A stretch of DNA of 64,000 nucleotides from Bdellovibrio bacteriovorus (GTDB lineage: Bacteria > Bdellovibrionota > Bdellovibrionia > Bdellovibrionales > Bdellovibrionaceae). The DNA is taken from contig NZ_LUKE01000001.1 of NCBI RefSeq assembly GCF_001592735.1, forward strand, positions 992,001-1,056,000, given 5' to 3'. The first letter of the stretch is position 1. Every line of letters starts with the position of its first letter. Positions 4,982 through 22,636 of this stretch are shown here, piece by piece. Position numbers and translations under genes: made by a program. Below the pieces are notes generated by a model. It saw nothing but the letters and a program-made list of their open reading frames with translations, had not been told where the DNA came from and did no database searches.

Positions 4982-5029
4982 TAACAACCATAACCCCAAA
5001 CCCCGTGACAAAACCCACCCCCCGAACTA

Positions 5030-5151
5030 AAAAGGTGCCTGGCTCTTTTTTCGGACCGGGGCGCGTTATGGACGTCGTTCATAATGTTAAAAGTACAAGG
5101 ATGTCATGCATCTGATGCGCTGTAGCCAGAAAAAAGAGCCAGGCACCTTTT
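5030..5151. repeat. 122-bp REP/MITE-like element bounded by 22-bp perfect inverted repeats
   Basis: Arms at 5030-5051 and 5130-5151 are exact reverse complements over 22 bp; the core of the arm is GGTGCCTGGCTC flanked by A4 and T6. The 78-bp interior contains further small hairpins: TTATGGAC/GTTCATAA with one G-T pair, and GCATC/GATGC. The right arm ends next to the AGGAG ribosome site of the acetyltransferase gene at 5162. The form resembles palindromic intergenic repeats mobilised by REP-associated transposases or MITEs. Only one copy is in this window, so 'repeat' is an inference from structure. Confidence 0.6.
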
Positions 5152-5161
5152 AGGAGATTTT

Positions 5162-5689
5162 ATGCATATTGAGTTTACTCAGGCTGATGAGAGTCATGTG
5201 GATGCCTTGGTTGAATTGGTTAACTCTGCTTATCGTGGTGAGAGCTCTAAAGCCGGGTGGACCACGGAAGAACACCTTTTAGATGGTCAGCGCATTGATG
5301 CGGCTGGGATTCTTGAAATTCTTCATAAAGAAGATTCCGTTATTTTGATCGCCGAAGACGACGACACCGGTGATTTGCTTGGCTGCGTTCACCTCGAAAA
5401 ACACGACTCGAAATGTTACCTGGGGATGTTGACCGTGAATCCTGAGCTGCAAAGCAAAGGGATCGGGAAACTGCTTCTCTCTGAGTCCGAAGCCTTTGCC
5501 GAGTTCTGGGACTGCGGCAAGATCTATATGACCGTGATTTCCGTGCGCACTGAGCTTATCGCTTGGTATGCAAAACACGGATACAAAAACACCCAAGAGA
5601 AAAAACCTTTTCCTTACGGCGATGAACGCTTCGGAATGCCAAAGGTGCAAAATCTTGAATTCACCGTTTTAGAGAAAAAGCTGTCCTAA
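5162..5689 (+). CDS. GNAT-family N-acetyltransferase
   Basis: 175 residues, the usual size for a single GNAT domain. The acetyl-CoA binding motif A is clear: LTVNPELQSKGIGKLLLSES (about 91-110), with the Q-x-x-G-I-G pyrophosphate loop. Motif B follows (MTVISVRTELIAWYAKHGYK), where the Y-x-K-H-G-Y turn is typical. The acceptor substrate cannot be told. The ATG is preceded by AGGAG directly abutting the right arm of the inverted-repeat element at 5030-5151, so the leader of this mRNA contains that element or its edge. Confidence 0.85.
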   Translation: MHIEFTQADESHVDALVELVNSAYRGESSKAGWTTEEHLLDGQRIDAAGILEILHKEDSVILIAEDDDTGDLLGCVHLEKHDSKCYLGMLTVNPELQSKGIGKLLLSESEAFAEFWDCGKIYMTVISVRTELIAWYAKHGYKNTQEKKPFPYGDERFGMPKVQNLEFTVLEKKLS

Positions 5690-13058: not shown

Positions 13059-13162
13059 AGATTTCCCCCACAAACCTCAGTTTATGAAATGCAAGGAGGG
13101 GATGCGATGGATTTATCCCAATCTAGACTGGACTGGAAAAATCAATAAAGGAGGCGGGAAAC

Positions 13163-13543
13163 ACGGTTTTGCTGTAAGCCGGATTCTGTCCAAATTACCA
13201 GGTCCCATAATTGTCCCGATAACCTTAGATGATCATTCCTCTGGGAGTGGCATTACTGACACCCTCAAGCGATCTTACCCGGTGACTACGGGCTGGCCGC
13301 CCTACTAGTGTCACCCTATTTGATCTTGCTCCGCGCAGAGTTTGGCTGTTTTCACTCCAGCGACTCCTCTAGGGGCTCCCGTTCCCGCCCCCAGGATCAA
13401 AGTCCTGGACATTCTCTCTGTTCCACTGTTCCTAACATTACTGTCGAAGGGCGTTACCCTTTGCGCTGCCATATGGAGTCCGGACTTTCCTCCCAAATAT
13501 CAAGTATTTAGAAAATTATGAGGGCGATCATCCGCAAAACCGA
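13163..13543 (-). ncRNA. rnpB: RNase P RNA, bacterial type A
   Basis: On the minus strand the 5' part contains GGGAGGAAAGTCCGGACTCC and the 3' part ACAGAATCCGGCTTAC, the two universally conserved ends of the P4 core. P1 is identified by CGGTTTTGC (13534-13542) pairing with GCAAAACCG (13164-13172), nine perfect base pairs that set the ends to within a few nt. Length is about 380 nt, normal for type A. The RNA cleaves tRNA precursors with RnpA. No clear hairpin terminator is visible below 13163. Frames inside it are not genes. Confidence 0.95.
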
Positions 13544-21144: not shown

Positions 21145-21711
21145 TTAAAGCCAACGCCGACGAGGATTTTTCTTATCCACCGGCCAAACAGTCCAAGACG
21201 TTTTCAAATCACAAGCAATTAAAAAATTCTGCAGAACCAAGGACACGTCCCCTTTTTGCCAAAAATCGTCGGCAAAAGAAGACTTAGCTTTTAAAGCAAT
21301 ATCCGAAACCAAAGAATAAACCATCCCACTCATAGGGGGAATCAAAAAGCCAAAAGTAGAAAGCACCCCCTGCAGCCGAGAAAGTACACCCTTACCGCCC
21401 ACAGAATGCATCAAAACAAAAACCGAAACCGGTTTCCCCACTAGCCGAGACGACCCCTCAAGCGAAGTAATGTCTTCCAAGAAAGCCTGCAAAGGACTGC
21501 CCCAAGAATCCCAATAAGTCCCGGTAACAAAGATAAACCCATCAGCAGCTTCCATCTCTTTACGCAAAGAACCCGAAAAAGAAGTCTGAGCCAAATGCAC
21601 AACCCGACAAGAGGCCTGACCTTTAAGCGATTTCTCAACCAACTTAACCCAAGCCCCACAATTACCAACCCCACCAGAAGGACTCCCATTAAAAATCAAA
21701 ACCTTACGCAC
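21145..21711 (-). CDS. NADPH-dependent FMN reductase / flavodoxin-fold protein
   Basis: 188 residues from the GTG at 21711, with a G-rich ribosome site just upstream; a TTG 21 nt earlier is less likely. It opens RKVLIFNGSPSGGVGNCGAW, the flavodoxin-fold FMN phosphate loop. FIFVTGTYWDSWGSPLQAFLED follows, the isoalloxazine-binding and dimer region of the NADPH:FMN reductase family. The coding strand is unusually rich in G and T at codon third positions compared with its neighbours. It could be a quinone or azo reductase, but the substrate is unknown. Confidence 0.72.
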   Translation of the reverse strand: MRKVLIFNGSPSGGVGNCGAWVKLVEKSLKGQASCRVVHLAQTSFSGSLRKEMEAADGFIFVTGTYWDSWGSPLQAFLEDITSLEGSSRLVGKPVSVFVLMHSVGGKGVLSRLQGVLSTFGFLIPPMSGMVYSLVSDIALKAKSSFADDFWQKGDVSLVLQNFLIACDLKTSWTVWPVDKKNPRRRWL

Positions 21712-21846
21712 AAAAAAACCCCCACCAACCAATCATCCCAAAACCCGACAAAAAAACAACGCGAAACAAAAAAAGCACAAAGCCCCCTCCAACGCGCTCT
21801 AGTTTTAGCGAACGAAGAAAGACACATCGATCCTAGCAATGATTTA

Positions 21847-21982
21847 TTTTAGAGAGGGGCTGGATTTCCATTTCGCAGGAGGCTTCGCCGGCGCATGGAT
21901 GCGCGAACCGCCCGAACGGGCGGCGGCGACAGAGGCACGATGCCGACCTCCGGAGAAGTGGGAAGCCAGCCCGTCTCTAAAA
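21847..21982. repeat. 136-bp long-stem, multi-hairpin palindromic element
   Basis: Outer arms 21847-21863 and 21966-21982 match at 16 of 17 positions; pairing continues inward to about 36 pairs with few mismatches (21847-21882 with 21947-21982). The interior folds into a branched core: TCGCCG/CGGCGA encloses two hairpins, GCGCAT-GG-ATGCGC and CCGCCCG-AA-CGGGCGG, and a separate GGCA-CGA-TGCC hairpin follows. It is GC-rich amid AT-rich DNA, with no coding frame. It lies between the FMN reductase gene (minus) and the BON gene terminator. It could be a mobile palindromic repeat or a structured RNA; I match it to no known family. Confidence 0.65.
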
Positions 21983-22021
21983 CAAATCCAGTGTTATGAA
22001 AACCGATAAGAACTATCTACG

Positions 22022-22058
22022 AGAGAAAAAAAGAGGACGCCTTGGAGAAAGGCGTCCT
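22022..22058 (-). terminator. Rho-independent terminator of the BON-domain gene
   Basis: AGGACGCC (22034-22041) and GGCGTCCT (22051-22058) form an 8-bp stem. On the minus strand it is followed by a seven-T tract. It lies 31 bp beyond the stop of the BON gene. Confidence 0.85.
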
Positions 22059-22089: not shown

Positions 22090-22608
22090 TCACGAATTTT
22101 CACCGTTCATCAAGAGACCTCCTTCTTCTTCATAAAGTGGTGCTCGACGAGGCGGATATTTGATTTCAATGAAATTCAAAACATCTCGCACTCCCGAGAG
22201 CTCCCACGCAGAGGCCACGGCCATGGCTTTAAGTCGTGGTCGGAAGACTTCACCTTCCAATTTGACAATACCATCAGCGACATCGACCTCAATATGTTCA
22301 CCACCAATTTTAATAATTTCGTCTATTTGTTCCTTTAATATTTTTAAAATCTCTTCATCTGAGCGGTAATAATCACCGGGTACCACGATGCGATCTTCAA
22401 TGCTCCAGACACCTTCGGTTTCAGAAAGAACTTCTAAAGCCGCATTTTTTTTATAAGAAGTGTCCACAAAGCCACTGACGATAATGACACCATTACGGAC
22501 CACGATATTAAGGTCAGCCGTACTGACACGTTTATCCCATTTGATGCGATCTCGCAAAATCCGCGAAAGCTCGCCATCTGAATGATTTTTCATTTGAAGA
22601 GAGTTCAT
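22090..22608 (-). CDS. BON-domain protein (two BON repeats)
   Basis: 172 residues from ATG 22608, chosen for GAAGGAG eight nt upstream; an upstream GTG overlaps that site. Two BON modules are visible: LSRILRDRIKWDKRV...VVRNGVIIVSGFVDT (about 12-80) and EILKILKEQIDEI...VADGIVKLEGEVF (about 85-150). BON domains bind phospholipid surfaces or osmolyte-related partners. There is no export signal, so it is probably cytoplasmic. It is 28 bp downstream of hpf, so both may be expressed in the same stress or stationary-phase transcript. Confidence 0.85.
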   Translation of the reverse strand: MNSLQMKNHSDGELSRILRDRIKWDKRVSTADLNIVVRNGVIIVSGFVDTSYKKNAALEVLSETEGVWSIEDRIVVPGDYYRSDEEILKILKEQIDEIIKIGGEHIEVDVADGIVKLEGEVFRPRLKAMAVASAWELSGVRDVLNFIEIKYPPRRAPLYEEEGGLLMNGENS

Positions 22609-22636
22609 AATATGCTCCTTCACAATCCTTCTATTT

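Follow-up and report, generated by a model that had tools for sequence, protein, structure and literature searches.

The imperfect inverted repeat at positions 21841-21988 of the window (the whole stretch of 64,000 nt of Bdellovibrio bacteriovorus DNA that was analysed) belongs, as judged from sequence, to a family of Bdellovibrio extragenic palindromes that is old and dispersed. Tentatively, and with somewhat less than an even chance of being right, the family is read here as REP/BIME-like palindromes of a new design located at gene ends, with a putative function at these sites. What is claimed for the window copy itself extends to its family membership and its placement. Few regulatory elements have been described for the predator Bdellovibrio, which would gain a testable, genome-wide gene-end module.

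The window element and its family

The two arms of the window element are 42 nt each and 83% complementary, with 64 nt between them (Table 1). In the minimum-energy fold the outer stem comprises ~30 pairs with small interruptions, and the GC-rich 64-nt tip is branched, carrying four small helices above the outer stem, of which P3 encloses P4 and P5. The fold energy was -83.9 kcal/mol, compared to a mean of -51.0 (sd 3.9) for shuffled sequences (z -8.4; 0 of 200 shuffles as low); the reverse strand of the element also folds (-73.1, z -6.9). A first-pass annotation, made from the letters alone, had placed the element at 21847-21982, limits that are right to within 6 nt, and had described a 36-bp stem; the stem does span that length, but its ~30 pairs are interrupted. 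The four mini-hairpins named there are all present in the minimum-energy fold (P4, P5, P3 and P6), pairing far beyond chance is borne out by the shuffles, and the element is non-coding as had been stated, lying between two minus-strand ORFs.

Table 1. Features of the window element and its surroundings (window coordinates)
Feature	Position	Strand	Basis
5' arm of long outer stem (copy-specific sequence)	21841..21882	+	inverted repeat and fold
3' arm of long outer stem	21947..21988	+	inverted repeat
Foot motif CAAATCC	21983-21989	+	also present in other copies
Helix P3, 5' side TCGCCG, pairs with 21924-21929	21885..21890	+	fold; covarying helix 2
Helix P3, 3' side CGGCGA	21924..21929	+	fold and covariation
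Hairpin P4 (GCGCAT/ATGCGC), loop TGGA in window copy	21891..21904	+	fold and alignment
Hairpin P5 (CCGCCC/GGGCGG), covaries between copies	21908..21923	+	fold; covarying helix 4
Hairpin P6 (GGCA/TGCC)	21934..21944	+	fold; helix 5 in covariation test
Match to family model R1, 82.1 bits	21861..21976	+	covariance-model scan of window
Intrinsic terminator-like hairpin and T run of minus-strand BON gene	22026..22058	-	sequence
BON-domain protein gene, 3' end facing element	22090..22623	-	ORF; Pfam PF04972
NADPH-dependent FMN reductase gene, 5' end facing element	21145..21732	-	ORF; Pfam PF03358

Known RNA patterns had been excluded by eye, and the Rfam scan agrees: no family reached threshold at the element, the only match in the window being the class A RNase P RNA (13159-13543, minus strand), and a permissive threshold returned nothing relevant at the element. 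A known Rfam RNA family was accordingly rejected, as the window element fell below all thresholds and the HD100 loci matched only c-di-GMP-I and SRP, outside the element.

Searched by blastn, the window element matched other sequences in its tip and not in its stem. Besides three more places in the same genome, matches came from 17 of the 39 relatives searched (own genome counted), all belonging to the one genus Bdellovibrio. A covariance model, R1, was built from 52 copies. Within the window it gave one strong match (next best 13.7 bits); it found 10 copies in the window's genome, and of the first relatives 22 of the 24 Bdellovibrio genomes and none of the 15 others were positive. Across the order, 28 of 140 genomes were positive, made up of the same 22, four of the taxonomic family and two from outside it with a single weak match each; presence in other genera is patchy. 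R1 matches in 16 genomes amounted to 293 copies. Pattern matches outside the Bdellovibrio set (47 stretches in genome_contigs, 23 in viral_contigs) were mostly spurious: five matches, in four Bdellovibrio loci, were real by R1 (74.9-98.5 bits), and the rest scored <=27.6.

Folded copies measure about 150-200 nt. Those listed have a common plan, in which a long, near-complementary outer stem of copy-specific sequence carries a branched tip that is conserved; many of them also have a foot of the GATTTG...CAAATCC type. No sequence of the outer stem is common to the copies, and its pairing is kept. Some copies (L044, L166, L167, L172) have an extra hairpin within the tip.

Scored against the R1 structure, 14 of the 20 tip pairs had changes on both sides and 96.3% of 1034 cells paired. 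Cells changed on both sides numbered 114, compared to a shuffled mean of 25.9, and four of five measures were unmatched in 500 shuffles. Relatedness of the copies inflates such counts, and a slid-structure control was therefore relied on as well; it yielded at most 54% paired and at most 21 both-side-changed cells. The conserved branched tip is, we infer, likely the recognition part of the element, either for a protein or as the fold itself. GGA in hairpin loops recalls CsrA sites; this reading of the GGA in the P4 and P6 loops was rejected, about 3 of 10 P4 loops in the alignment being ACGA. The first-pass annotation had proposed a search for copies and for covariation. Many dispersed copies were found in the same genome and in relatives, the tip does show compensatory changes, and copies are also kept at orthologous sites.

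Placement at gene ends and transcription

Genes were called by ORF and codon score (not from annotation) at 84 loci with 106 copies, orthologs included, and ORFs overlapping a copy were set aside. The 106 copies were taken from 107 matches, one repeat of the same G049 copy being omitted and another G049 copy being counted twice. For eight of them no 3'-side gene was called, leaving 98 to be scored. The 3'-side gene (model strand) points its stop codon at the element in 75 of these 98 copies and its start codon in 23; when each cluster of related loci was given a single vote, stop-facing clusters prevailed by 36 to 9 with 8 ties (p 6.6e-5). Where both neighbours were called (80 copies), the genes were convergent in 41 cases, same-direction in 36 and divergent in 3, which is the extragenic setting, between converging or same-direction genes, that characterises REP/BIME elements.

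The stop codon lies <=61 nt from the model end in 51 copies, in which the hairpin starts almost at once. A further 20 copies lie 63-260 nt from the stop, 18 of them with a terminator-like hairpin in between, and four stop-facing copies are further off than 260 nt. For comparison, 32 transcription-unit ends of the window were put to a similar test, and 9 of them had a terminator-like hairpin within 110 nt. From the stop-facing bias and the intervening terminators it follows that the reverse-strand element mostly comes after a stop codon or a terminator. Past the 51 stop-adjacent copies, terminator-like hairpins were found on the gene strand in 11 of 51 and on the opposite strand in 10 (shuffled, 2.8), and the folds listed lacked a general U tract past the hairpin. 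The window copy belongs to the second group, following a terminator and not a stop codon directly: it begins ~37 nt beyond the terminator-like hairpin of the BON gene and, because that intrinsic terminator is intact, is unneeded for termination of this gene. One start-facing copy lies upstream of a gene that, read from its start, is presumably pilM.

Twenty neighbour proteins with the stop codon facing a copy were chosen by hand for a Pfam scan. They comprised BON, FtsW/RodA, semialdehyde dehydrogenase, HrpB helicase, ABC ATPase, DUF3458, Yip1, DUF429, PPPase, MmgE/PrpD, Hsp33, two phospholipase D-like proteins, glutamate synthase, GroEL, sigma-54 and four without match. These twenty are varied and mostly housekeeping, with no common pathway among them.

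Neighbour pairs within 2 kb were found 22 times and were divergent in the model sense in all 22, with 167-615 nt between model ends; orientation was mixed for copies 2-50 kb apart (293 copies, 16 genomes). Some close pairs are orthologous to one another. A divergent arrangement is expected if each of two converging genes has one copy, and both partners were stop-facing in 9 of the 21 pair loci examined. Converging genes thus explain the divergent pairs only partly, in less than half of cases, and the remainder leaves room for an original paired unit. No gene or sequence common to paired copies was noticed among the folds listed.

Transcription, the remaining check proposed in the first-pass annotation, could be followed in published data at one locus. 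Genome G006 was taken to be B. bacteriovorus HD100, and the c-di-GMP riboswitch of merRNA in G006 falls inside its published coordinates. APsRNA6, an attack-phase transcript of HD100 with a FliA promoter (Table 2, PMC3627812), spans a family copy in reverse orientation within its 3' part and ends inside a second, degenerate copy, which indicates reverse-strand transcription at this locus; the other seven RNAs of the same table overlap none of the 13 HD100 copies. As APsRNA6 passes the first, co-directional copy, that copy is not a strong or efficient terminator there. An open frame of 92 aa that has no Pfam match lies within APsRNA6 (L264:1114-1392), which may therefore be an mRNA. Another HD100 copy (L268:1543-1816) is on the same strand as the small SRP RNA gene and ~58 nt upstream of it.

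Orthologous sites and evolution of the stem

The window locus is occupied in G000, G001, G018 and G009, and in G006, G008, G015 and G011 the gap is short and without the element. Of 19 G018 loci tested, 18 have an orthologous copy in G001. Orthologous copies are also retained at sites with flanks of only about 70% identity. At the nineteenth locus (L258:2145-2876; right flank in L249) G001 has a TIGR04255 gene at the place of the G018 element, and the foot alone is kept. Occupied and empty sites were compared for target duplication and are too diverged for the element ends to be placed. The site 3' of rpoN was compared in 25 species, three of which carry the family element and four a terminator-like hairpin (G000, G004, G007, G011). 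Six species have other long repeats there with a common tip (GTCCTCGCTC ... GGAACTCG; L287, L288, L292, L296, L300 and L302), a type seen at no other gene among the loci examined; G013, G015 and G017 have a third repeat type, and the remaining species nothing nameable.

Stems of G018 and G001 were compared in 19 orthologous element pairs, drawn from 17 of 18 orthologous locus pairs, the 3' flanks being 88-100% identical except at one short locus. Stem columns over the 19 pairs were unchanged in 587 cases, changed on both arms in 126, on one arm in 43 and otherwise in 20. Joint changes were uneven, eight pairs having 10-21 each and the others few or none. Indels were mirrored between the arms (L041/L026), and the pair L184/L196 looks as an intermediate should, its differences being confined to the 5' arm in ten columns and to the 3' arm in three. 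Similar stems in non-orthologous copies were limited to one clear pairing among 41 copies of two close species, so that new stems are mostly not copied from other family members; on the same result, the near-identical recent copies expected of a MITE are lacking among these 41.

If an RNA stem were under selection, G.U pairs should be tolerated in it. Mismatches in 89 non-redundant trimmed stems (2826 positions) were G.U in 76 cases and A.C in 76, and control terminator-like hairpins from the same sequences had 20 G.U and 7 A.C (Fisher p 0.02). Two other counts were discarded: the first (134 G.U, 246 A.C) was contaminated by the inner loop, and the second (57 G.U, 101 A.C, p 0.0006), which taken alone would favour the reverse strand as RNA, was due to a constant A.C at the foot motif. 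The equal counts speak against an RNA stem as the target of selection, and with no G.U excess the pairing is probably kept at the DNA level, most simply by template switching. Template switching is reported to homogenise the arms of inverted repeats and to produce multi-base compensatory changes (PMC8794818, PMC8604942). The eight loci with wholesale change could instead be alleles imported by recombination. Compensatory change is usually taken as proof of a functional RNA helix; in this family the arms change jointly in orthologous copies of close species without the G.U excess expected from RNA selection, and the family is thus a natural, many-times-replicated test of hairpin maintenance by template switching.

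Known systems and competing explanations

REP/BIME elements are dispersed extragenic palindromes, situated mostly between converging or same-direction genes and rarely between diverging ones, which have been proposed to act at transcription ends, on mRNA stability and on supercoiling; REPs measure 20-40 bp and have family-conserved stems and a terminal tag (PMC3733652). The Bdellovibrio family is like them in placement, dispersal and palindromic nature, and differs in its stem of ~40 bp and free sequence, its conserved, branched tip and the lack of G.U enrichment. Membership in REP/BIME itself was rejected on size, tag, transposase link and stem conservation. Of 106 copies, 69 have a recognisable foot, and the CGTC tag stands there in 16 of these; it was dropped as a defining feature. 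A link to RAYT/Y1 transposases was likewise rejected: Y1 is absent from three genomes (G008, G013 and G016) that carry 11, 18 and 6 copies, and a single one of 20 Y1 loci has an R1 match, at a distance of about 1.8 kb.

REPINs are also extragenic hairpins of inverted units (PMC3116915), but their ends are conserved and the middle varies, whereas here the middle is conserved, the arms vary and there is no Y1-locus link. ERIC, bcr1 and other stem-loop repeats are likewise intergenic hairpins of roughly 100-200 nt (PMC2267715); those families were found by sequence clustering, in contrast to the Bdellovibrio family, most of whose stem has no common sequence, and the accessible text of that survey makes no mention of Bdellovibrio. 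Intrinsic terminators resemble the family where the hairpin comes directly after the stop codon, and in other species take its place after rpoN; the family hairpin, however, is far longer, has a conserved branched tip, shows no general U tract among the folds listed and often follows a real terminator. The T-shaped terminal hairpins of the AAV type also consist of a long stem closed by small side hairpins, a likeness of drawing only. No description of the family was found in the accessible parts of the open-licence Bdellovibrio literature on repeats, palindromes, hairpins and terminators, and the accessible texts of PMC3539863, PMC2267715, PMC12306157 and PMC3733652 do not describe the element.

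If the family is REP/BIME-like, as tentatively preferred here, it may work like BIME with a different design. On the reverse strand a long hairpin would form right after a stop codon or an intrinsic terminator, where it would terminate or protect the transcript and curb read-through from one converging gene into the other; alternatively, the element would serve at the DNA level, as a block or a topology site where the transcription unit ends. The stem would need only to be long and paired, its sequence being free, and, with the help of selection, the arms would be kept complementary by template switching, in which one arm is copied onto its partner as the DNA replicates. The species without an element at orthologous sites count against this explanation, as do the 23 start-facing copies, the position of the window copy past an intact terminator, the close pairs for which converging genes do not account, the lack of a general U tract among the folds listed, the passage of APsRNA6 through its first copy and the equal mismatch counts. 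A bolder version, which we think doubtful, is that the heritable part consists of the branched tip with a paired flanking stem whose sequence is repeatedly rewritten at the DNA level, on both arms at once, so that a genome-wide gene-end marker would be inherited as a shape.

The first-pass annotation had offered a mobile palindrome or a structured RNA; the data bear out the dispersed palindromic repeat, and lend no support to recent movement or to a stand-alone RNA gene or riboswitch. A non-autonomous mobile element (MITE/REP-like), inserting beside stop codons and terminators by means of a putative transposase, perhaps originally as a unit of two inverted hairpins and owing its placement to target choice and tolerance, is somewhat improbable. 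It would suit the many dispersed copies, the patchy presence at the window locus and in other genera, the differing long inverted repeats at the one rpoN site across species, and the close pairs, all divergent and explained by converging genes at only 9 of 21 loci. Recent jumps should nevertheless be near-identical, and the single similar non-orthologous stem pairing, the orthologous retention at 18 of 19 loci and the Y1 results all speak against it. Arms without function, regenerated as a palindrome by replication template switching around a conserved protein-binding tip, would account for the joint arm change, indels included, and for the lack of a G.U excess. We consider this unlikely; the retention of orthologous copies at sites with flanks of only ~70% identity and the stop-facing bias suggest that the element as a whole is under selection.

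That the element is an independent structured RNA gene or riboswitch, transcribed from a promoter of its own, is very unlikely. The conserved, covarying fold and the one copy within an HD100 transcript with a FliA promoter would fit it, but there is no Rfam match and no G.U excess in the stem, the scanned neighbouring genes have no common pathway, and APsRNA6 also holds the 92-aa frame, the copy lying in its 3' part. Chance formation of a GC-rich palindrome, with practically no probability left to it, is refuted by the z of -8.4 and by homologous copies that covary.

Elsewhere in the window, a second long inverted repeat without R1 match (5027-5154; 30-nt arms of the GGTGCCTGGCTC type, 68 nt between them) lies just upstream of a GNAT-family gene (5162-5689).
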